Shown here piece by piece: positions 24,412-37,140 of a stretch of 64,000 bases of DNA. The DNA is taken from NCBI RefSeq assembly GCF_020520285.1, contig NZ_CP084742.1:3038001-3102000 (forward strand), in the 5' to 3' direction. Below the pieces are notes generated by a model that was given only the letters and a program-made list of their open reading frames with translations, was not told the DNA's origin and made no database searches. The position numbers and the translations under genes were made by a program. How positions within the stretch are numbered: the first letter of the stretch is position 1; each line of letters starts with the position of its first letter. This DNA comes from Pseudomonas sp. L5B5 (GTDB lineage Bacteria > Pseudomonadota > Gammaproteobacteria > Pseudomonadales > Pseudomonadaceae).

Positions 24412-26850
24412 TCAGAACTCCAGCGTGCTGGACAACGACACCTGCCGCGCATCGCCCATGGACACGAAGAACTTGCTCGCCGACGAGGTGTAGTAGGTCT
24501 TATCGAACAGGTTCTTCACGTTGAGCTGGAACTTGACCTTCTGCCCTTCGACCTTGGTGTCGTAGGTGGCGAAGGCATCGGCCACGGTGTAGCCCGGCAG
24601 GTCGAAGCTGTTGGGCGCATCCCCGGCACGCTCGCCGACATAACGGGCACCGGCACCGACCCGCAGGCGATCGCCACCGGTCAGGCTGCCGAAGTCGTAG
24701 ACCGCCGACAGCGAGCCGGTGTTCTTGGCCACGTTCTGCAACCGCTTGCCTTTGTACTGGGTGTCCCTGGTCACCTCGGCGTCGGTGTAGGCGTAGCTGC
24801 CGATCAGGCTCCACTGGTCGGTGAGCTGCCCGGTCAGGTCCAGTTCCAGGCCCTTGGAGCGCACCTCGCCAGCGACGCTGGTAATGGTTTCGGTCGCCGT
24901 GGCTGTGGACACCAGCACGTTGCGCTTGGTGATGTCGAACAATGCCGCGCTGGCGGTGATGCGCCCCGGGATGTCGAGCTTGGCCCCCAGCTCCCAGGAC
25001 TTGGCTTCTTCAGGCTCGATGGAGCCGTCCAGTACCGCGGTGCCACCGGCCAGGTCGGCGATGCTGGAGTTGGGCTTGAACGATTCGGTGTAGCTGCCAT
25101 AGAGCGACAGCTGGTCGGTGTAGCGATACACCAGCCCTGCACGGGGCACGAACTTCTGCCCGTTGCTGTTGGTATTGACCCGGAACGGCCGGCCCTTGCC
25201 GGCGTACTGGTCGTACTCCTGGAAACGTCCGCCGCCCACCAGGATCCACTGGTCGGTAAGGTGGATGGCGTCCTGGAAGAACAGCGAGTCGCTGCGCAGC
25301 AGGTCAGTCTGGGCACTGTCCTTGTCACTGACCGTGGTGCCGGCCACTTCCCGGCCATAGACCGGGTTCTGGTAGTTGAAGGTGCCCAGGCTTTTCTGCC
25401 GGATCAGGTCGGCCCGATAAACCTTGCGGTATTCGTCGTCCAGGCCGAACACCAGGTCGTGCTGCATGCCTGCCAGTTGCACCTTGCCTTCGAGGCTGGC
25501 GGTGGCATATCGATCAGTGGTCAGGGCCCCCTGGGTGCCGTCCATGGAGCGGGTCAGGGTGCCATTGGCGTTCACCGCGCTCAGGCGCACCTGGCTGGCA
25601 TCGTAGGTCTCGCGGTTCCAGCTGTAGCCAAAGTGGGCCTTCCAGTCGTCGTTGAGATCGTGATCGACCTCCAGGCGATACAGGTCCGAGCGCCCTTCCA
25701 TGTTGTTGAACGGCTCGTCCAGGCGTCGGGTGGCGGGGATATCCAGCGGGTGATTGGTCTTGGGGTCGATGGCCGTGCCACGGTCGAACGGGGTCAGGAA
25801 CTCACGATGCTCGTAGGCCAGCAGGACCTTGGTGCGCTCGCCGTACCAGGCCAGGGACGGCGCCACCAGGGATTCGCGACGAGTGCCGAAGTTGCGCCAG
25901 TAATCCTCGTCCTGGTGATCGACGATCAGGCGATAGGCCAACCCGGAATCACCGATCGGCCCGGTGGTGTCGAGGCTGCCACCGCTGCCGTTCTTGCCCG
26001 AGCCGTAGGTCGAGCCGCGCACCGTCAGGGCAGTGGATGGCTGCAGCTCGGGTTTCTTGCTGACGATGTTGATCACCCCGCCCGGGTCCTGGATGCCGTA
26101 CAACAGCGATGAAGGCCCCTTGAGCACTTCCACCCGCTCGGCGGTGGCATTCAGGGCCCGGCCCTGCACCACCGGCATGCTGTCGCGCATGATCGAGCCG
26201 TTGCGATTGTCGCCAAAGCCGCGCAGCAGCACAGCGTCCTGGGTGCCGGCCAAGGTGTTGGTCTGGGTGATGCCGCTGACGTTCCTCAGGGCGTCGTCCA
26301 GGTTGCGCGGAGCCTGGTCCTTCAGGACCTGGGCCGGAACCACATTGATGATCTGCGGGATTTCCTGGTTCAGTGCCTGGCTGCGCGCCACCGAGGTGGT
26401 GGCCGGCGGCTGGTAGCTGGTGCTGTCATTCAGGCCCTGGGCCGTGACGCTGGTGGCGCCCAGGTTCAGGGCCGCCCCCTGGGGCAAGGGCTCCAGGACC
26501 AGGGTCCGGGCATCGCTGCGCCGGTAGCTCAAGCCAGAGTTGCCAAGCAAGCGCTCAATGGCCTGCTCGGCGCTGAACTGGCCATTGAGCGCCGGGGCGT
26601 TGAGGCCATAGGGCACATCGGAGGTGTAGACCACGCTGATGCCGGTGACCCGGGTGAAATCACTCAGGGCCTGGGGCAGTGGCTTGGCCGCGATGTCAAA
26701 GCGCAAGAGCGCGCTGTGCTGTTCGTTGCCGGTTTGCGCCGCCAGGGCGACCCCCAGGGGCAGCAGCGCCAACCCCGACACCGCCAGCGCGGATGCACCG
26801 AACCATCGTTTTACCGAACCGTTTGCCGCCGAATTTGCCCTGGACTTCAT
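24412..26850 (-). CDS. TonB-dependent siderophore receptor with N-terminal signalling (STN) domain
   Basis: 812-residue outer-membrane receptor. Signal peptide to ~35, STN domain ~48-115 (RFDIAAKPLPQALSDFTRVTG), TonB-box region near LGATSVTAQG, plug ~150-280 (LRGFGDNRNG...VEVLKGPSSLLYG) and a C-terminal beta-barrel ending in an aromatic residue (SSTLEF). The pattern is that of hydroxamate or ferrichrome/ferrioxamine receptors, but the ligand is not fixed by sequence. An STN domain normally signals to a FecI/FecR pair; none is adjacent, though an unpaired FecI/FecR lies at 33.3-34.8 kb. A 16-bp AT-rich palindrome lies 94 bp upstream. Confidence 0.92.
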   Translation of the reverse strand: MKSRANSAANGSVKRWFGASALAVSGLALLPLGVALAAQTGNEQHSALLRFDIAAKPLPQALSDFTRVTGISVVYTSDVPYGLNAPALNGQFSAEQAIERLLGNSGLSYRRSDARTLVLEPLPQGAALNLGATSVTAQGLNDSTSYQPPATTSVARSQALNQEIPQIINVVPAQVLKDQAPRNLDDALRNVSGITQTNTLAGTQDAVLLRGFGDNRNGSIMRDSMPVVQGRALNATAERVEVLKGPSSLLYGIQDPGGVINIVSKKPELQPSTALTVRGSTYGSGKNGSGGSLDTTGPIGDSGLAYRLIVDHQDEDYWRNFGTRRESLVAPSLAWYGERTKVLLAYEHREFLTPFDRGTAIDPKTNHPLDIPATRRLDEPFNNMEGRSDLYRLEVDHDLNDDWKAHFGYSWNRETYDASQVRLSAVNANGTLTRSMDGTQGALTTDRYATASLEGKVQLAGMQHDLVFGLDDEYRKVYRADLIRQKSLGTFNYQNPVYGREVAGTTVSDKDSAQTDLLRSDSLFFQDAIHLTDQWILVGGGRFQEYDQYAGKGRPFRVNTNSNGQKFVPRAGLVYRYTDQLSLYGSYTESFKPNSSIADLAGGTAVLDGSIEPEEAKSWELGAKLDIPGRITASAALFDITKRNVLVSTATATETITSVAGEVRSKGLELDLTGQLTDQWSLIGSYAYTDAEVTRDTQYKGKRLQNVAKNTGSLSAVYDFGSLTGGDRLRVGAGARYVGERAGDAPNSFDLPGYTVADAFATYDTKVEGQKVKFQLNVKNLFDKTYYTSSASKFFVSMGDARQVSLSSTLEF

Positions 26851-26969: not shown

Positions 26970-27116
26970 CGGAACCTGCGGCAGCGGCTACACGAAACAG
27001 GCTACAACCGCGCACCTGTAGCCGCTGCTGAGCCTGCGAAGCTGCGACAAGGTCCGCAGGACCTTCAACGTCCGACCGGCCAACCCAGAACCTGCGACAG
27101 CGGGTGCACGAAGCAG
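26970..27116. repeat. REP-type element cluster (GTAGCCGCTG family, three half units)
   Basis: Half units at about 26970-26993 (CCTGCGGCAGCGGCTAC), 27018-27046 (GTAGCCGCTGCTGAGCC) and 27087-27116 (imperfect). It lies between the receptor promoter and the nucleotidase stop codon. A further single half unit is at 28938-28957. Confidence 0.75.
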
Positions 27117-27133: not shown

Positions 27134-28837
27134 TCAGTTGCTGCGCTGGATCCGTCCGGCACTGGCGCTGGAGCCCACCGGTGTGCCTTGCTGGTCCATG
27201 TCCTTGAGGTAAAGCAGCATCGCGTCCAGGTCGCTGACCCCGAGGTCGCTACGGTTCAGGCCGCTCTTGAACAGGCTGAAACGATCACCGCCATCGGCCA
27301 GGAAGCCATTCATCACCAGCCGGTAGCTGGCCTCGGCCTGCAGCGGCTTGCCGTTGAGGCGCACGCTGCCGGGTACGACACGGCTGTCCAGCGGGCGCTT
27401 GGCGTCCCAGCGATAGGTGAAGCCCTGGGAAACTTGCAGGATGTTGGCATCGTCCGCGCCCTTCCATTGCTGGTTGAGCACCTGCTCGATCTGCCGACCG
27501 GTGAGGTCGAAGGCGATCAGGTTGTTGTTGAAGGGTTGCAGGGTCGCCAGCTGCCCGTAGTTGACCCGGGTCTGCCCCGGCTCCAGGGCCAGGTCGCTGC
27601 GAATGCCACCGGTGTTCATGAAGGCGACCTGCGCACCATTGGCCCGGCCGCCGGCCAAGTGGGCATCGGCGATCAGGTCGCCGATGGGCATTTCCCCGGC
27701 CGCGTCGGCGCGCCGGGCAATCGGCGAGGCGGCAATCGCCCCCACCGGTTTGAGCAGTACCTGATTGCTCCGCGCCTCGACCTCCTGTTGCAGCTGCGCC
27801 AGGGTCGGGTCCTGTGGATAACGTGCCGGGTCAGCTACCAGGTTGAGGGCCTGGATGCTCGCCACCCGGTGCTGGCCCGGGGTCACTTGCAGGGTCAGGT
27901 GGGTCAGCAGGTGGCCGTAGGAATTGCCCTGGGTCACCAGCAGCGGCCCGACCTTGCACAGGTAGCCCTGGTGCGAGTGGGCGCTGATCAGCACGTCCAC
28001 CGCGGGGTCCAGGCGCTTGGCCACGTCGACGATATCGCCACCGAGCTGCGAGCAGTCCTGCTTGTCGAAAGGTTCCGGGGTCGCGCCGCCCTGGTGCACC
28101 ACGGCGACGATGGCGTTGGCCCCCTGGGCATGCAGCTCGGGGATCAGCCTGTTGATGGATTCGGCTTCATCGGCCACCTGCAACCCGCGCATGCCCTTGG
28201 CGCTGACCACCGAGGCCACGTCCCGCAGCACCGCGCCGACAAAGGCCACCTTGACCCCGCGCACCTCCTCGATGCGGTAGGCCGGCAGCAACGGCTTGCC
28301 GGTGTCGCTGTCCATCAGGTTGGCCGCCAGGTAGGGGAAACCGCTGCCCGGGTAGTTCGGGCGAAACTGGCAGGCCTTGTCCGGACGGGGCGACTGGCAG
28401 CCGCCATTGAGCTGGCGCAGGAACTCGGCCTTGCCGTTGTCCAGTTCGTGGTTGCCGATGGCACTGAGCTTCATGCCCATCTGGCGCAGGGCGTCCAGGG
28501 TCGGCTCGTCGGCCCACATCGCCGACAGCGGCGGGCTACCGCCCACCAGGTCGCCGGCGCCGATGAACAGCAGCTGCGGGTCCTGCTGGCGCAGTTGGGT
28601 AAGCATGCCGCCCAGGGTGGCGATGCCGCCGGCCTGCAGTTTGCGCACGCCGCCCGGGGCCTGGGGATCCTTGTAGCTGAAGGGGTTGGCTTGCAGGTAA
28701 CCGTGCAGATCGTTGATGGCGACGATGTTCACCGCCACCGGTTGCGGTGGCTGAGACAGCGAGCTGCAACCGGCCAGGGTGACCAGGGCCAGGGTCAGTG
28801 CCCCCAGCAACCGGGGCGTGGGACGAAGACGGGACAT
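27134..28837 (-). CDS. Bifunctional 2',3'-cyclic phosphodiesterase / 5'-nucleotidase family lipoprotein
   Basis: 567-residue exported metallophosphoesterase of the UshA type. Lipoprotein signal with lipobox LAGC. Metal-site motifs are all visible: NDLHG, GAGDLVGGSP, GNHELDNG and AHSHQG; the C-terminal nucleotide-binding domain follows (~350-560). It should release phosphate and nucleosides from extracytoplasmic nucleotides. ATG 28837 is chosen for its lipoprotein signal and AAGGA site. It is the last gene of the exbD-tonB-receptor-exbB operon, 133 bp after exbB, so it probably supplies or processes the substrate of that uptake system. Confidence 0.9.
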   Translation of the reverse strand: MSRLRPTPRLLGALTLALVTLAGCSSLSQPPQPVAVNIVAINDLHGYLQANPFSYKDPQAPGGVRKLQAGGIATLGGMLTQLRQQDPQLLFIGAGDLVGGSPPLSAMWADEPTLDALRQMGMKLSAIGNHELDNGKAEFLRQLNGGCQSPRPDKACQFRPNYPGSGFPYLAANLMDSDTGKPLLPAYRIEEVRGVKVAFVGAVLRDVASVVSAKGMRGLQVADEAESINRLIPELHAQGANAIVAVVHQGGATPEPFDKQDCSQLGGDIVDVAKRLDPAVDVLISAHSHQGYLCKVGPLLVTQGNSYGHLLTHLTLQVTPGQHRVASIQALNLVADPARYPQDPTLAQLQQEVEARSNQVLLKPVGAIAASPIARRADAAGEMPIGDLIADAHLAGGRANGAQVAFMNTGGIRSDLALEPGQTRVNYGQLATLQPFNNNLIAFDLTGRQIEQVLNQQWKGADDANILQVSQGFTYRWDAKRPLDSRVVPGSVRLNGKPLQAEASYRLVMNGFLADGGDRFSLFKSGLNRSDLGVSDLDAMLLYLKDMDQQGTPVGSSASAGRIQRSN

Positions 28838-28970
28838 GGAAAAAATCCTTGGAAAGTCGACGAAAAAAAAGCCGCCGGCGAAAGCCGTGAACGCTCGACC
28901 AAGGAGGCTGGGGAACACCACCCGCCTGGTCGTCGCTCACAGCCTGCGCCAGCGGCTACAGGCTAGGCCA

Positions 28971-29615
28971 TCAGGCAGGTTGCAGGCTGCCGTGGATCGC
29001 TTGCGGGGCTGGCGGGGCCTTCAGGGCGGTGCCCATGCCGGCACGCAGCAGGAGGATCTTCAGGTGGTCGGTGATGCGCTCGACCCGATCCTGGAAGTGG
29101 TTGTGGAAGATCATGCTGCCCAGGGCAATGGCGATCCCCAGGGCCGTGGCGTACAGCGCGGTGCCAATGCCCTTGGAGACTTCGCCCGGATCGGAGACAC
29201 CGGTCTCGGCCAGGGCCTTGAAGGTGTCGATGATCCCCAGGATGGTGCCCAGCAGGCCCAGCAGCGGCGCTGCGGTGACCACGGTTTCCAGCAGCCACAG
29301 GCCATGCATCAGCTTGCTGCGGGTGGCGATGTAGATCGATTCGCTGAGGTCTTCCAGGTCCTTGTGGCTGGCCAGCCCCTGCTTGTGGGCGAACAGCTCG
29401 GCGACCATTTCCAGGGGCAGGCTGTTGCGCTCGCGCAGCTCGGCGGGCAAGTCGTCGACGCTGTGCATCTTGGGGTTGAGCACGGTCTCCAGTTTCTTCG
29501 CCTGGCGCAGGCTGAAGCTGAAGTAGATGCCCCGCTCCACCGCGATGAAGGCGGCAATCGCGGCCGCACCATACATGGTGTAGAAGGTGATGTCGTGCAG
29601 CAGATTCATGTCCAT
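28971..29615 (-). CDS. exbB: ExbB-type proton-channel protein of a dedicated TonB system
   Basis: 214-residue MotA/TolQ/ExbB family inner-membrane protein with three membrane segments (about 8-28, 112-135, 150-172). The family block LLGLLGTILGIIDTFKALAE is present. With ExbD it powers TonB. ATG 29615 (MDMNLLHDI) has GAGGA seven bases upstream; ATG 29621 is too close to that site. It lies 28 bp after the receptor gene in the same operon, separated from its exbD partner by tonB and the receptor, an unusual order. Confidence 0.92.
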   Translation of the reverse strand: MDMNLLHDITFYTMYGAAAIAAFIAVERGIYFSFSLRQAKKLETVLNPKMHSVDDLPAELRERNSLPLEMVAELFAHKQGLASHKDLEDLSESIYIATRSKLMHGLWLLETVVTAAPLLGLLGTILGIIDTFKALAETGVSDPGEVSKGIGTALYATALGIAIALGSMIFHNHFQDRVERITDHLKILLLRAGMGTALKAPPAPQAIHGSLQPA

Positions 29616-29643
29616 CGTCATGTCCTCTTGTGCCTGAAACAAA

Positions 29644-31884
29644 TCAGAACGCAGCTTCCAGGGAGACCATCGCGGTCCGCTCCTCGCCGACGTTGTAGTA
29701 GGCGGTGCTCGGTGCCAGGCCATTGGTCTTCACCGAGTTGAACGACACGGTGCGGGTCGAGGCCAGGTATTCCTTGTCGAACACGTTGAGCATCGAGAAA
29801 CGCAGGGTCGCGGACTTCAGCACCTTCTTGTCCACTGGCAGGTGGATACCGGCGTTGAGGTCGAACACGGTGCGCCCGGAGATCTTCTCGTCGTTGGTCA
29901 GGTCGCCGTAGAAGGCACCGACGTACTTGCCGACGACGTTGCCGTAGTAGCGCGAGTCGTCGTAGCCCAGGCTCAGGTTGAACATGTTTTCCGGCACGTT
30001 GACCAGTTGCTTGCCGGAGGTCGGCAGCAGCACGTTCTTGTTGGTCAGGTCATCCATCTGCTCGGACTTGGTGTAGGTGTACGAGGCGTAGTAGTTGAAG
30101 TTGTGCGGTAACAGGCCGCTCCACTCCAGCTCCAGGCCGCGGTTCTTCACTTCGCCGACGTTGGCCACGACGTAATCGCCATTGAGATCGGTGGTGGAGA
30201 TCTGCCGGTCCTTGAAGGTGATGTAGAACAAGGTCGCGCTCAGCGCCATCTTCTCTTCGCTGTAGCGCCAGCCCAATTCCTGGTTCCAGCTCAGCTCGGG
30301 TTTCAGGCTGATCGAATCACCCTTGTTGTAGAGCACGTAGTTGGGCGGCGTGCGCATGTTGCGGGTGACGTTGTAGAACGCCTGGTTGTTCGGGTCGATC
30401 TGGTACTTGGCGTTGAAGCTGGGCAGGAACTGGTGATAACGCACGTTCCGTTTTTCCGCCTTGTCGGTCAGGCTGCCGAGGTTGTTGCCGTCACGTTCCA
30501 CGTACTGGTAGGCCAGGGCCCCGGTGAGGGTCAGGTCCGGGGTCGCCTGCCAGGTGTCCTGTACCCAGAGTTTCTGCGCCGGGGTCACGGTGTACTGGTG
30601 CCGGCCCTGGACCGTGGTGCCATTGCGGTCCACCAACTGGTCGGAGCCGTTGTAGTCGCCCCAGACGTTCTCCGGCGCCCCGTTGGCCTTGATCCCGATG
30701 AAGGGCTGGGTCTGGCGCTGGCGGGCGCGCTCGTACCAGTAGCCGACGTCCAGGCTGTGTTCTTCGTTGAGGTCCCACTTGAGCTTGGTGGTCATGCCGG
30801 GGCGCCAGGTCTCGGTCCAGGATGGCCGGTAGTAGGTGCCGCTGGGCAATCCGCTCAGGTCGTAGTTGCCAGCCCTGCTGGAGGTGCTGGACAGGGTGGT
30901 GGCGGTCTGGCCACTGAAGCTGCCGCCGTTGGACCACACGTAGTACGGGTTGAAGGTCAGGCTCAAATCGTCACGCAGCTGGAAGCGCTGGGTCACCGAG
31001 GCGGTCACGCTCTCGAAGGGGTTGCGGTTGAGCTTGTAGGACTGGGACACGCTGCCGTTCTTGAACACGGTGCTTTCCGAGTAGTCCACGCGCCGGCCCT
31101 GGCTCTGGAACTGGCCCTTGCTGACGCTGTTGTAGTTGTAGTTTTCCTGCTTGTTGTACTTGAGGATGGCATTGGTGGAGTTGCCGTTGCCGTCTTCGAA
31201 CAGGGTGTTCCATTCGATCTTGTCGGCACGCAGGGTGCCCTTGCCCTTCCACTTGTCGCCTTCGGTGTGGGAGGCCGAGACCCAGGTCTTGAAGCCACCC
31301 AGGTCGCCGGTGTTCAGGCGGGCGAAGGATTTGCGCAGGTTGTTGGAACCCACCGACTGCTTGACGAACACCCCGAAGTCCTTGGTCGGGCGCGCGGTCA
31401 CCAGGCCGATGTTGCCGCCACTGGAGCCGATGTGCGGGCCGTCGGCTTCGGACGAACCCTGGGTGACGAAGACTTCGCTGAAGTTCTCCGAGTCGCCCAT
31501 CAGGTTCGGGTAGATGCTGTAGTCCCCCGAGTCGTTGATCGGGAAGCCATCGGAAGAGAGCCCGACCTGGTCGGAGTTCATCCCGCGCATGGTGAAGCTG
31601 GTGCCGCTCAGGCCGGTGGCATCAGTGCTGGAAACGTTGATCCCCGGGGTGTACTTGAGCTTGTCCACGGCGTTGGCGGTGGGCGCCATCTGGTCCATGG
31701 CTTCCTTGGTCACGGTGGAGCGGCCCTTGGCGCTTTCCTCCTTGATCATGTGGCCATTGCCCAGGGTCTGTTTACCGGTCACGTTCACCGCGCCGACATC
31801 CACGGTATCGTCGGCCAGAACCAATGGCGCAAAACTGCCCAGGCCCGATGCCAGAAGCAGGGCATAAAGTTTATTGATCTTCAC
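29644..31884 (-). CDS. TonB-dependent receptor of the PHO-box operon
   Basis: 746-residue outer-membrane receptor without an STN signalling domain. Signal peptide to ~24 (GSFAPLVLA/DD), TonB-box-like VDVGAVNVTG at ~28-37, plug ~50-170 (FTMRGMNSDQVG), and a beta-barrel ending MVSLEAAF. It sits 42 bp after tonB and 28 bp before exbB, so it most likely has a private energy supply. The upstream PHO box and the downstream nucleotidase point to a phosphorylated ligand rather than a ferric siderophore; this is inference, and the barrel sequence alone does not identify the substrate. Confidence 0.92.
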   Translation of the reverse strand: MKINKLYALLLASGLGSFAPLVLADDTVDVGAVNVTGKQTLGNGHMIKEESAKGRSTVTKEAMDQMAPTANAVDKLKYTPGINVSSTDATGLSGTSFTMRGMNSDQVGLSSDGFPINDSGDYSIYPNLMGDSENFSEVFVTQGSSEADGPHIGSSGGNIGLVTARPTKDFGVFVKQSVGSNNLRKSFARLNTGDLGGFKTWVSASHTEGDKWKGKGTLRADKIEWNTLFEDGNGNSTNAILKYNKQENYNYNSVSKGQFQSQGRRVDYSESTVFKNGSVSQSYKLNRNPFESVTASVTQRFQLRDDLSLTFNPYYVWSNGGSFSGQTATTLSSTSSRAGNYDLSGLPSGTYYRPSWTETWRPGMTTKLKWDLNEEHSLDVGYWYERARQRQTQPFIGIKANGAPENVWGDYNGSDQLVDRNGTTVQGRHQYTVTPAQKLWVQDTWQATPDLTLTGALAYQYVERDGNNLGSLTDKAEKRNVRYHQFLPSFNAKYQIDPNNQAFYNVTRNMRTPPNYVLYNKGDSISLKPELSWNQELGWRYSEEKMALSATLFYITFKDRQISTTDLNGDYVVANVGEVKNRGLELEWSGLLPHNFNYYASYTYTKSEQMDDLTNKNVLLPTSGKQLVNVPENMFNLSLGYDDSRYYGNVVGKYVGAFYGDLTNDEKISGRTVFDLNAGIHLPVDKKVLKSATLRFSMLNVFDKEYLASTRTVSFNSVKTNGLAPSTAYYNVGEERTAMVSLEAAF

Positions 31885-31926
31885 GGGTCAATCCCTTGCT
31901 TACAACTTTCGTTAATAGGTGATGGG

Positions 31927-32697
31927 TTATTCCACGTTGTAGCTAAAGGTCGCGGTGAACCGTTGCTTGTTCTTGCCCGAGAAGGCGTCCGCCGGGAATG
32001 GCGAGACCTTTTCCACGCGGCGCAAACTGGTTTGTGCGGCACGGTTGAGCAACATGTTCGGCGCCTTGTTTTCGATGCCACTGTCGAGCACGTTGCCGGC
32101 CCGATCGACTTCCAGCCAGATCACCACATCGCCCTGGGGACGTTGCAGCGAGGCCTCGCGGCCACTGGGGTATTGCTTGTGCTTTTCCAGTTCCTTGCGC
32201 AAAGCGGCGGTGTACAGACTTTCCTTGATGGCACTGGCTGGCGCCGCGGGTGCGGAAGCCGGGGCCGGTGCAGGGGCCGGTGTCGCCACCGGTTTGGGCG
32301 CTGCGGCCACCGCGGGCTGCGGTGCTGCAGGGACGCTCTGGGCCACCGGGGCCGAGGCCGGCTTGGGTGGCAAAGGCTTGGCGACCATGGGCTTGGGCAC
32401 CACGGGCTTGGGCTTGACCACAGGCTTGGGCTTGGGCGGCTCGATCACCAGCGGTTCGGTTTCCGGCTCCACCACGGGCGGTTCGGGTTCGACGGGCAAC
32501 GGTTCGGGCGCAGGCGGTGGTGGTTCAGCCACCGCCAACAGCTCGCTGGCATCGACCAGGGCCACCTCCACCGTGCTTTCGTCGTACACCGGCATGATCT
32601 GCAATCGCTGCAGCTGGCTGCTGTAGATCACCAGCAGCAACAGGCCGGCCGGCAACAGGCACGCCAGCAGCTTGCGGGTTCTATAGAGACTGAACAT
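31927..32697 (-). CDS. tonB: TonB energy-transducing protein (dedicated copy)
   Basis: 256 residues: a cytoplasmic N terminus, one membrane anchor (~12-32), a long Pro/Lys/Glu-rich periplasmic spacer (~55-165, many PKPVV and PAPA units) and a C-terminal TonB domain (QYPSGREASLQRPQGDVVIW...). The YP motif typical of TonB C termini is present (KQYPSGR). ATG 32697 starts 4 bp after the exbD stop. It lies between exbD and the receptor, which suggests a receptor-specific TonB rather than the housekeeping one. Confidence 0.93.
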   Translation of the reverse strand: MFSLYRTRKLLACLLPAGLLLLVIYSSQLQRLQIMPVYDESTVEVALVDASELLAVAEPPPPAPEPLPVEPEPPVVEPETEPLVIEPPKPKPVVKPKPVVPKPMVAKPLPPKPASAPVAQSVPAAPQPAVAAAPKPVATPAPAPAPASAPAAPASAIKESLYTAALRKELEKHKQYPSGREASLQRPQGDVVIWLEVDRAGNVLDSGIENKAPNMLLNRAAQTSLRRVEKVSPFPADAFSGKNKQRFTATFSYNVE

Positions 32698-32701
32698 GGC
32701 G

Positions 32702-33109
32702 TCAGGACTTGCGCGTGGCGATGGAGACGGAAGAGAAGCCATTGCCCTTGAGCAAGTCCATCACCGAAACCAGGCGTTTGACCTCGACGCCCTGATCGCT
32801 GTTGATAATGATCACCAACTTTTCACTGCCGGTATTGAGCACCTTGAGCTGTGCCAGCAGGGCACTTTCGTCCAGGTCCTGGCCATCGAGTTGCAGGCGC
32901 TCCTGCAGGCCCAAAGTGATGACGGCCTTGTTTTGCGGTTTCAACTGCTGCGCGGTACTGGCGACCGGCAATTGGGTCTTGATCCCCACGGCGGGGATCA
33001 CGTTGAGACTGATGAGTACGAAGAACACCAGGAGAAACATCATCACATCGATCATCGGGATGATTTCGATATGGGCCTTTTTCTTTTTAGCGACATCCCA
33101 GCTGCGCAT
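32702..33109 (-). CDS. exbD: ExbD/TolR-family protein of a dedicated TonB system
   Basis: 135 residues: a short cytoplasmic N terminus (DVAKKKKAHIEIIP), a single membrane segment with the essential Asp (IPMIDVMMFLLVFFVLI) and a periplasmic domain. First gene of the operon exbD-tonB-receptor-exbB-nucleotidase. A PHO-box match lies about 105 bp upstream at 33214-33231, after the stop of fecR on the same strand. Confidence 0.93.
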   Translation of the reverse strand: MRSWDVAKKKKAHIEIIPMIDVMMFLLVFFVLISLNVIPAVGIKTQLPVASTAQQLKPQNKAVITLGLQERLQLDGQDLDESALLAQLKVLNTGSEKLVIIINSDQGVEVKRLVSVMDLLKGNGFSSVSIATRKS

Positions 33110-33213
33110 CGATTTGCTCCTGCTTCAGCCATCCCTCCCCTACGAGAGCTGAATCACAACCCTCTCCGATCCTGACCATGTGCTCAGGAATGCGCAGATC
33201 ATCCGCGCCTCGT

Positions 33214-33231
33214 GTAACGGTTTAGTGACAG
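33214..33231 (-). promoter_or_regulatory. Candidate PHO box upstream of exbD-tonB-receptor-exbB-nucleotidase
   Basis: Reads CTGTCACTAAACCGTTAC on the minus strand, matching the PhoB consensus CTGTCAT-AWAW-CTGTCAY at 14 of 18 positions with correct 7-4-7 spacing. A weak -10-like GATGAT follows ten bases downstream. It sits between the end of fecR and the exbD start and faces exbD. Confidence 0.65.
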
Positions 33232-33277
33232 AACGGAGTGATATCGATGAATGTTCGGGAGCTCTGGAACAAGGCTC

Positions 33278-34267
33278 TCAGCGCAGGACGACGAGCCTGC
33301 CGAAAATCTGGTGCTGTTTGAAACCCAGCACCGCCTGCAGGGAGTCGAGGACCGCTTGCGGGTCCTTGCTGGAGAAACTGCCACTGATGCGCCGCGCCGC
33401 CAGCTCATCGTTGAGCAGCAGGATGCGCCCCGGGAAGTAGCGCTGCAGGTCCTGGACCACCTCGGCCAGCGGTGCGTGGTAGTAGTTCAACCAGCCCTCG
33501 CGCCAGGCCAGTTGGGCTTCGCTGTCGGTTGTGTGCAACGGGGCGGCCTGCCCCTGGCCGTAGGCCACTTGCTGGCCGGCGCCAAGCACTTGCTGCGCCG
33601 CCCCCCGGGACGGCGTGACCCCGACCCGCCCGGACAACACCGTGACCTGCGCGCCCCGGGGTTGCAGGCAAACTTCGAACTGGGTGCCCAGGACATGGGC
33701 CTCGCCCTGCTCCGCCGTGACCACGAACGGCTGGCCGGTGTGGCTGACGCTGAAGAAACCGGCGCCACGGCGCAGTTGCACCTGCCGCTGGCCATGGCTG
33801 AAGTCCACGGCAATGGCGCTGTCGGCGTCCAGGGTCACTTCGCTGCGGTCGGCCAGGGTCACGGTGCGTACCTGGCCCGGTGCCGAGACGTAGTCGGCGC
33901 CCAGGTCATCGACCCAGCGTCCCGGCTGCCAGCCGGCGCCCAGGGCCACCGCCAGCAGCACACTGGCGGCCATCGCCAACCCCACCGCTGTGCGGCGCCG
34001 GCCCCGGCCCCGAGCCGCCTCCATGCGATGCAGCAGGCCGTGCAGGGCCTGGGCGTCTTCCGCGGCCAGGGTCCGCGCCGGCTGTTCGCTCAACTCCCAC
34101 ACCACCTGGGCCTGGGCATAGGCCTCGACATGGGCCGGATCGGCTTGCAGCCACTGGCTGAAGGTGGCCTGGTCGCCGCTGCTGGGCCGGTCGTGGAGCA
34201 GGCTCAGCCAGGCCAGGGCAGCCTGTTCCTGGGCGGGCGTCGGGATGACGATGGAGCGCTGGTTCAC
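33278..34267 (-). CDS. FecR-family anti-sigma / sigma regulator
   Basis: 329-residue inner-membrane regulator: an N-terminal cytoplasmic anti-sigma domain with the DUF4880-like block (ALAWLSLLHD...FSQWLQADPAHVEAYAQ), a membrane segment at ~93-110 and a periplasmic FecR domain (APGQVRTVTLADRSEVTLDADS). It should receive a signal from an STN-containing receptor and control the ECF sigma factor next door. It starts at GTG 34267, overlapping the sigma stop (GTGA), so the pair is translationally coupled. No STN receptor is adjacent; the one at 24.4-26.9 kb is a candidate partner. Confidence 0.92.
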   Translation of the reverse strand: MNQRSIVIPTPAQEQAALAWLSLLHDRPSSGDQATFSQWLQADPAHVEAYAQAQVVWELSEQPARTLAAEDAQALHGLLHRMEAARGRGRRRTAVGLAMAASVLLAVALGAGWQPGRWVDDLGADYVSAPGQVRTVTLADRSEVTLDADSAIAVDFSHGQRQVQLRRGAGFFSVSHTGQPFVVTAEQGEAHVLGTQFEVCLQPRGAQVTVLSGRVGVTPSRGAAQQVLGAGQQVAYGQGQAAPLHTTDSEAQLAWREGWLNYYHAPLAEVVQDLQRYFPGRILLLNDELAARRISGSFSSKDPQAVLDSLQAVLGFKQHQIFGRLVVLR

Positions 34268-34839
34268 GGGGCATTCCTTGGCGTGCGCGGGGTCGAGGGG
34301 TCCCGCAGGCTGGCCTTGCAGGCTTCGAGGGCGCGCATCATATGTTTTTCCACGGCGCTTTGGGACAGGCCCATCGCCTTGGCGATCTCGGCGTACTTGC
34401 GCCCATGGATGCGGTTGAGCAGGAAGATCTGCCGGGTGCGCTGGGGCAGGCTGCGCAGGGCCGCCTCGACATGGCGCAGGTCATTGCCGGCTTCCAGCAC
34501 GGCCTGTGGCTCGAGGCCCTGCTGATCCTGTTGCTCGGGCATCCAGCCTTCGCTGACCCGGACTCGCGCGCCCTCGCTGCGCAAGTGGTCGATGGCGATG
34601 TTGCCAGCGCAGCGCAACAGGTAAGTGCTCAGTTCCTCGACCTGGATCAGGGGGCGACGCCAGAAACGCAGGAACAGGTCCTGCACCAGATCAGCGGCGG
34701 TGGCCCGACAGCCGACACGGCGACTGACAAGGGCCTCCATCTGCGTACGTTGGGACAGAAACACCTGGAGAAAATGCGCGCGGCTGCCTCGTGGATCGGG
34801 CCCATCCGGTTCTCGGGATTGCGGGGGCAAGACATCCAT
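34264..34839 (-). CDS. FecI-family ECF sigma factor (orphan pair)
   Basis: 191-residue ECF sigma factor. Sigma2 region with ATAADLVQDLFLRFWRRP and sigma4 with RTRQIFLLNRIHGRKYAEIAKAMG are clear. It is the fourth gene of an operon DUF3649-PepSY-DUF3325-FecI-FecR, whose first gene lies next to the Fur-box region at 37126. ATG 34839 gives a normal-length protein, although its ribosome-binding site is weak. Predicted to transcribe an iron-siderophore receptor gene located elsewhere. Confidence 0.9.
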   Translation of the reverse strand: MDVLPPQSREPDGPDPRGSRAHFLQVFLSQRTQMEALVSRRVGCRATAADLVQDLFLRFWRRPLIQVEELSTYLLRCAGNIAIDHLRSEGARVRVSEGWMPEQQDQQGLEPQAVLEAGNDLRHVEAALRSLPQRTRQIFLLNRIHGRKYAEIAKAMGLSQSAVEKHMMRALEACKASLRDPSTPRTPRNAP

Positions 34840-37057: not shown

Positions 37058-37125
37058 GTTCGGACCTTGAAGCAAAAGAAAGCCCGGGACGCGAATGCCC
37101 GGGCGCAACAGGCGGACAATACTAA

Positions 37126-37140
37126 TGATAAATATTCTCA
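37126..37140. promoter_or_regulatory. Fur box in the divergent DUF3649 / fecI promoter region
   Basis: TGATAAATATTCTCA matches the 7-1-7 Fur consensus TGATAAT-N-ATTATCA at 12 of 14 defined positions. It lies 69 bp before DUF3649 (minus) and 130 bp before fecI (plus), placed to repress both iron-uptake operons when iron is plentiful. Confidence 0.75.

Follow-up and report, generated by a model that had tools for sequence, protein, structure and literature searches.

What would an outer-membrane receptor import when it is encoded together with its own energy-transducing proteins and a 5'-nucleotidase, and when would such a system be switched on? This question is raised by five minus-strand genes of Pseudomonas sp. 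L5B5 within a stretch of 64,000 nucleotides of contig NZ_CP084742.1 (positions 3,038,001 to 3,102,000), here called the window, whose first letter is position 1. Drawing on observed gene content and order, co-occurrence across genomes, conservation of a promoter block and the partner genes of relatives, we consider it reasonably probable that the operon encodes a dedicated TonB-powered importer for nucleic-acid-derived phosphorylated compounds, with cleavage in the periplasm and probable induction by PhoB. The five genes run from 33109 to 27134 in the order that the initial annotation had given, which open reading frames and Pfam domains bear out, and are followed by a hairpin:

32702..33109, minus strand: exbD (Pfam ExbD, 9.2e-30)
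31927..32742, minus strand: tonB (TonB_C, 3.2e-5, 24.7 bits against a cut-off of 24.6; NCBIfam tonB_Cterm, 2.7e-7)
29644..31884, minus strand: TonB-dependent receptor (barrel PF00593, 3.9e-46; plug PF07715, 5.6e-12)
about 28971..29621, minus strand: exbB (MotA_ExbB, 2e-26; start codon inferred)
about 27134..28837, minus strand: 5'-nucleotidase lipoprotein (5_nucleotid_C, 6.1e-40; Metallophos, 2e-8; start codon inferred)
27000..27023, minus strand: terminator-like hairpin 3' of the nucleotidase gene (pattern search)

Domain calls are based on Pfam and NCBIfam profile scans of the proteins of the window. The interval 27134..33231 of the initial annotation, reaching from the stop of the nucleotidase gene to the PHO-like element, is correct. 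The exbD and tonB genes overlap by 41 bases, and the subsequent gaps of about 42, 22 and 133 bases depend on the start codons chosen for exbB and the nucleotidase. The hairpin is weak by itself, as nine such patterns occur in the region where 5.7 are expected. The receptor is a TonB-dependent transporter by its domains, with plug and barrel both above the Pfam cut-off, and its nearest solved relatives are remote (YncD/PqqU, 2e-12; FhuA, about 1e-10). Pfam found no match in it to STN, the domain of cell-surface-signalling siderophore receptors, in agreement with the initial annotation. The nucleotidase begins with MSRLRPTPRLLGALTLALVTLAGC, with a lipobox (LAGC) recognized by eye; it contains both Pfam domains of the UshA/CD73 type, above cut-off, as well as the putative metal-binding motifs NDLHG, GDLVG, GNHELD and AHSH (by eye), and the bacterial nucleotidases 3ivd and 2z1a align with it across most of its length.

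Within the genus, 50 of 298 genomes have the receptor (1e-150), as do 22 of 198 in the family (1e-100), while a class-level search of 369 genomes at 1e-100 gave no match except in the window's own genome. The window's closest relatives, at 94-97% identity, belong to Pseudomonas piscis, P. protegens and other Pseudomonas. Six of the family-level receptors (L158 to L163) share 36-38% identity and have no exbB or phosphoesterase hits nearby; they appear to belong to a different system and are treated as such. The receptor genomes of the genus show four arrangements. Group A, the window's clade (5/50), is ordered fecI-fecR-exbD-tonB-receptor-exbB-nucleotidase-STN receptor, and group B, a fluorescens-type clade (14/50), has fecI-fecR-receptor alone. 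Group C (6/50, plus other genera of the family) carries exbD-tonB-receptor-exbB-nucleotidase at other sites. In group D, the remaining 25 genomes, the same first four genes are followed by a PLD-family gene, with the exceptions of G161 and G257, which have a nucleotidase instead, and G051, which has both. The order exbD-tonB-receptor-exbB, already remarked upon in the window for separating exbB from exbD, recurs in the exbB-bearing loci compared, the two exceptions being truncated at the end of a contig (L052 lacks exbD, L118 both exbD and tonB); it is therefore no quirk of this window. A search for the complete five-gene order in other genomes had been suggested at the outset: it is kept in A and C, whereas D mostly has the PLD-family gene and B the receptor alone. 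As side observations, the whole locus occurs twice, with identical match scores, on two scaffolds of the P. piscis MC042 assembly (L031 and L032 of G293; L071, L089), reflecting either a recent duplication or an assembly artefact, and among the remote receptors of other genera a GMC-type oxidoreductase gene comes next in L159, L161 and L162 (about 36% identity), with a periplasmic-binding-protein gene before the receptor in L159 and L162 (both by eye).

A predicted phosphate-ester-cleaving enzyme accompanies the exbB-linked form of this receptor throughout. All 68 exbB-bearing loci, taken as fetched stretches of about 18 kb with some genomes counted twice (e.g. L050, L094), contain a gene from one of two unrelated enzyme families, the nucleotidase or the PLD family (A 12/12, C 16/16, D 40/40), which in L156 and L157 is a nucleotidase gene lying upstream and divergent. 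Of 32 genomes with the receptor that were tested, 31 have exbB at E <= 1e-25, versus 0 of 20 genomes without the receptor, although one of the latter, G023, has a fragment. Seen from the enzymes, the nucleotidase occurs in 17 of 298 genomes, 14 of which have the operon, and the PLD gene in 37 of 298, 36 of which have the receptor. The proposal of a private importer for a phosphorylated compound, made from the window alone, is thus upheld in so far as a dedicated, apparently energized receptor is tied to phosphate-ester cleavage, but the system is not always private, as 13 of the 14 genomes with a lone receptor carry a sister operon of D type with exbB and PLD. A PLD relative at 1e-80 is absent from the window's genome; the same threshold gave no match in 321 class-level genomes, an empty result that is uninformative. 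Besides, an exbB fragment directly precedes an open nucleotidase gene in G023 (L186, 7674-9692), which looks like a decayed operon, and the off-operon nucleotidase relatives in L189 (G089) and L187 (a second copy in G134) show no apparent lipobox by eye, unlike the operon-borne ones compared.

The history of these arrangements was read from a FastTree tree of 87 receptors, including that of the window and two outgroups; receptors below 600 residues, those with stops inside the frame and duplicates of another were removed, as were L095 and further weak relatives. Groups A and B together are monophyletic (0.999), as is B by itself (1.0), and the C and D loci that carry the operon fall outside them. 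For this reason group B is regarded as a secondary loss: by parsimony, the complete operon would be the older state, from which B would have shed exbD, tonB, exbB and the nucleotidase and retained the receptor with its promoter block. The reverse order, with B as the older state and the window's clade gaining partners, was rejected on the same grounds. At 1e-60 the nucleotidase is found in none of the 14 group B genomes, and the co-occurrence of their lone receptor with a sister operon (13 of 14) may go no further than shared ancestry. On the D branch, one in-frame stop each was observed in the second receptor of G119 (L115), exbB of G161 and the PLD gene of G212, which may be pseudogenes or sequencing errors.

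The partner genes of group C bear on the cargo. Cytidine deaminase and NupC are the next genes in nine of the 16 C-labelled loci, eight of which also have deoxyribose-phosphate aldolase (DeoC), resulting in an extended operon of eight genes that ends cdd-nupC-deoC. The nucleotidase and deaminase genes overlap in six of these nine loci, and scanned representatives of cytidine deaminase, NupC and DeoC pass the curated NCBIfam cut-off. In addition, an S1/P1-type nuclease is encoded within the stretch in 3/16 C loci, as the adjoining gene in L149. All four families are missing from the remaining 88 loci (12 of A, 30 of B, 40 of D and 6 of the outgroup). Enteric bacteria and vibrios scavenge nucleotides by a UshA/NupC route composed of a periplasmic 5'-nucleotidase, a nucleoside transporter, a deaminase and DeoC, with nucleotides or nucleosides passing the outer membrane by passive channels; group C resembles this route in its enzyme set and differs by the TonB-dependent receptor within the operon. 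In group D, the enzyme has PLD domains; among solved proteins it matches 7e0m of Serratia first (2.5e-172), followed by PLD4 and PLD3 (1e-34 to 1e-28), which are 5'-3' exonucleases, and by a virion nicking-joining enzyme. A divergent gene for PhoD accompanies 37 of the 40 group D loci and also L116 and L117, which carry a nucleotidase yet lie on the D branch. As judged from their predicted families, the partner genes jointly point to products of nucleic-acid breakdown.

What is transported and in which direction, how the receptor is energized, on which side of the membrane the enzyme lies and whether PhoB is involved are inferred from sequence, and we picture the route as follows. The receptor would carry nucleotides, short oligonucleotides or close relatives over the outer membrane, energized by its own ExbB-ExbD-TonB complex, and the lipoprotein 5'-nucleotidase would free phosphate and nucleoside in the periplasm. 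The enzyme is placed there because group D enzymes start with apparent plain signal peptides (by eye) and because NupC acts from the periplasm, though the lipoprotein could face outward instead. In group C the nucleoside would then enter via NupC and be degraded by cytidine deaminase and DeoC. In the window's genome, no match was found to the NupC family, for which the control search was positive in E. coli and others and beyond which other nucleoside transporters were not searched for, nor to S1/P1 nuclease, for which the control was weak (Caulobacter alone, below cut-off). Given these negatives and the missing PLD match, the gain there is more likely phosphate than nucleoside, and this phosphate would probably enter via Pst. 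Transcription would probably be increased by PhoB when phosphate is short.

Control by phosphate had been proposed from a PHO box upstream of exbD, and the region shows the following elements:

33214..33231, minus strand: PHO-box-like element CTGTCACTAAACCGTTAC; no other 18 columns in the alignment of 31 intergenic sequences are as conserved
33247..33253, minus strand: CATTCAT, a third repeat resembling a half-site, exactly 22 bases upstream of the PHO-like block
33198..33203, minus strand: -10-like GATGAT, 10 bases downstream of the block
33170..33189, minus strand: palindrome TCCTGA-N8-TCAGGA, an operator or a 5' leader hairpin

The PHO pattern consists of direct 11-base repeats, CTGTCAY-N4-CTGTCAY, and the element (CTGTCAC-TAAA-CCGTTAC, 33231-33214) departs from it by two mismatches (12/14), being the only site in the window with at most two. 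Such sites lie near background counts, with nine at up to three mismatches in the window versus 15.5 expected, and 83 at up to two mismatches genome-wide versus 65 for a reversed control; the count as evidence by itself was rejected as uninformative, and a single match is weak for this reason, so that it is conservation that raises its weight. When the stretch separating fecR from the gene after it is aligned for groups A and B (31 non-redundant sequences; L051 and L091 were excluded, as their upstream stretch is unalignable), the block reads CTGT(C/A)AC-YAAA-NSGTTAY with a mean identity of 0.953 over its 18 columns, and its first half matches PHO at 7/7 positions in 26/31. The upstream repeat C(C/A)TTCAT or a one-base variant is present in 31/31, two of them varying by one base in the TTCAT part, and GATGAT or GATCAT stands exactly 10 bases downstream of the block in all 31. 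In the window's genome, the PHO boxes of the pstS-like and pstC-like genes (recognized by eye) likewise stand 10 bases from TAGAGT and TAGGGT; this shared spacing, together with the repeat, favors PhoB.

The most serious competitor, to which we give a lower though still substantial likelihood, is that the block is the operator of another regulator, formed by a dyad and the CCTGA-N8-TCAGG palindrome and induced by nucleosides or another signal, which would leave the transport part of our proposal intact. Several observations speak for it and against PhoB. The block also reads as the dyad TGTnAC-N6-GTnACA, matched at 10/10 positions in 25/31 sequences and at nine in the other six, and in five sequences the first half is CTGTAAC, a change that disrupts the core of the PHO pattern and makes the dyad complete. 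The second half of the block is never canonical in the 31 sequences, having no T at position 2 and no C at position 5, and in six B loci (L036, L037, L039, L040, L077, L078) another site is the best for PHO. Nor does the operon strand of nine C and nine D-branch loci scanned hold a site of at least 12/14, and six of nine C loci (L050, L054, L149, L150, L151, L153) have a sigma-54-like promoter before exbD (TGGCAYG-N4-TTGCW, 10 or 11 of 12 positions), as if the same operon changed promoter type between lineages. Against this alternative stand the intact first half-site in most sequences, the repeat 22 bases upstream and GATSAT 10 bases downstream, the latter distance being the one found at pstS-like and pstC-like genes here. 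The palindrome CCTGA-N8-T(C/T)AGG is itself present in 31/31, 25 bases past the block (24 in two), and its extended form TCCTGA-N8-TCAGGA has one exact copy genome-wide; it may be an operator for some regulator or a 5' hairpin. Elsewhere, L150 and L151, from another genus, show a related block (11/14) in the corresponding place plus the palindrome, L097 of group D has an 11/14 site that exceeds its 60 shuffles, and L062 of group D has a 12/14 site on the opposite strand, facing PhoD. The PHO box of the initial annotation stands as a conserved 12/14 element with the right spacing, its second half being non-canonical and open to a dyad reading, and control of this operon by PhoB and phosphate is likely, as far as promoter comparison can tell, though it would not extend to the family as a whole. 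A perfect PHO-pattern match was also noticed in L119 (G000:C1:2288457-2288474), 44 bases before a 154-residue frame with an exported-like start, a candidate for a new phosphate-starvation gene.

The cargo has a rival reading as well, in which the importer serves other phosphodiesters, such as phospholipid head groups, glycerophosphodiesters or teichoic-acid-like polymers, and the nucleotidase is a broad phosphatase. PLD-family and PhoD enzymes, both encoded in group D, can cleave phospholipid-type diesters too, so nucleic acids are not the sole common substrate. The window nucleotidase scores below every NCBIfam curated or equivalog cut-off, and the nucleoside genes are confined to part of group C. 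The receptor also persists without an adjacent enzyme: 14 of 298 genomes, those of group B, have it alone behind fecI-fecR, a conserved neighbourhood without the nucleotidase that the initial annotation had named as telling against it and that the tree reads as secondary loss, and one of them, G186, has neither sister operon nor exbB. Conversely, enzyme genes occur without the receptor (nucleotidase in G023, G287 and G089; PLD in G044). All these points weigh against a nucleotide importer as we propose it. Two available texts speak for the rival cargo: the Serratia plymuthica enzyme 7e0m was published as a phospholipase D, although its authors find that several of its pocket loops resemble nucleases of its family, and the available part gives it no natural role (PMC8004604), its likeness to the group D enzyme concerning the protein alone; and for one comparable Flavobacterium locus, lipid headgroups and nucleic acids were suggested (PMC8115612, in the part available). 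Nevertheless, the group C genes are nucleoside-specific (cytidine deaminase, NupC and DeoC above their cut-offs, and the S1/P1 nuclease), and the window enzyme aligns best with 5'-nucleotidases, even if below the cut-offs just mentioned, and we regard import of other phosphodiesters as unlikely.

The neighbouring genes bear on the weakest alternative:

33278..34267, minus strand: fecR-like anti-sigma gene, which marks the locus (FecR, 1.2e-20)
34264..34833, minus strand: fecI-like gene for an extracytoplasmic function (ECF) sigma factor (Sigma70_r4_2, 3.2e-17; start uncertain)
24412..26850, minus strand: siderophore-type receptor with STN (STN, 2e-10; TIGR01783, 388.5 bits against a cut-off of 223.5)

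The STN receptor is likely the partner of fecI-fecR, upstream of which a PepSY gene lies on the same strand, and the locus looks like a fecI-fecR-receptor arrangement into which a second operon was inserted. That the operon receptor itself takes up a siderophore or metal chelate, with the phosphoesterase incidental or acting on a phosphorylated chelator, is suggested by this position and by its top NCBIfam match, a siderophore-receptor subfamily at 136.9 bits against a cut-off of 223.5, but seems very improbable in view of the absent STN domain, the lack of a Fur-like box before exbD and the phosphoesterase in every exbB-bearing locus, 56 of which lie away from fecR. The best Fur-like site before exbD matches 10/19 positions, equalled in 113 of 200 shuffles, which counts against simple iron control, and Fur control of the operon was rejected accordingly. 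The window's top Fur-box-like match (14/19) lies at 37121-37139, before the PepSY gene.

Parts of our preferred reading, a TonB-dependent importer of nucleotide-like compounds, have precedents, the sources below being cited as far as their text was available. The Pus loci (phosphate utilisation systems) of Flavobacterium respond to phosphate shortage: their transporters, TonB-type or SusCD-like (PusCD), are induced and have genes for periplasmic phosphomonoesterases and phosphodiesterases as neighbours (PMC8115612). The operon resembles Pus in the co-location of a TonB-type transporter with a phosphoesterase and in the organic phosphate import proposed; low-phosphate induction was shown in Flavobacterium and is here a proposal. 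It differs in that PusCD are SusC/SusD pairs of Bacteroidetes (PMC8115612), whereas Pfam found no SusD-type match among the five operon proteins, and in that the locus itself encodes ExbB, ExbD and TonB together with an enzyme of the 5'-nucleotidase or PLD family and, in some relatives, nucleoside genes. The P. aeruginosa set exbB2-exbD2-tonB4, which the initial annotation invoked in general terms, is indeed a precedent for an extra TonB energy set tied to phosphate in Pseudomonas, as it belongs to the VreI regulon and needs PhoB and the sigma factor VreI (PMC7035377). Unlike the operon described here, it is ordered exbB-exbD-tonB and has neither a barrel receptor nor a nucleotidase among the genes named in the available text, where VreA is described as having no barrel and PA0696 as a putative porin (PMC7035377). 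In Pf-5, two of five exb-tonB clusters, which may or may not include a counterpart of the present locus, are iron-responsive, one up and one down (PMC3377617). A low-phosphate exoproteome study reported expression of UshA by P. stutzeri DSM4166 and of PhoD by DSM4166 and P. fluorescens SBW25, whereas P. putida BIRD-1 did not secrete its UshA-like protein; the word TonB does not occur in its main text as available (PMC5082522), and the available text of PMC5438359 holds nothing bearing on this operon. Among the open-licence papers searched, we found none that deals with this operon or describes a TonB-dependent receptor for nucleotides, and no assignment of nucleic-acid-derived phosphate esters to any TonB-dependent receptor. 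TonB/phosphoesterase loci as in Flavobacterium are known already, and this gene set with its nucleoside-linked variants is a new form of them.

A broader proposal, which we put forward with about equal confidence and reserve, is that these loci constitute a class of nucleotide or oligonucleotide TonB transporters with their own energy complex, wired in three ways: to phosphate starvation in the window's clade, to nucleoside catabolism in group C, and to a PLD-family enzyme and PhoD in group D. The family offers a natural comparison, one receptor type occurring with a nucleotidase, with a PLD-family enzyme, with nucleoside genes, or alone. If the reading is true, active outer-membrane import in Pseudomonas would reach nucleic-acid-derived phosphate esters, and root-dwelling biocontrol strains would gain a high-affinity route to organic phosphorus; the importer probably lets soil Pseudomonas and their relatives take up and use nucleotide-like compounds.

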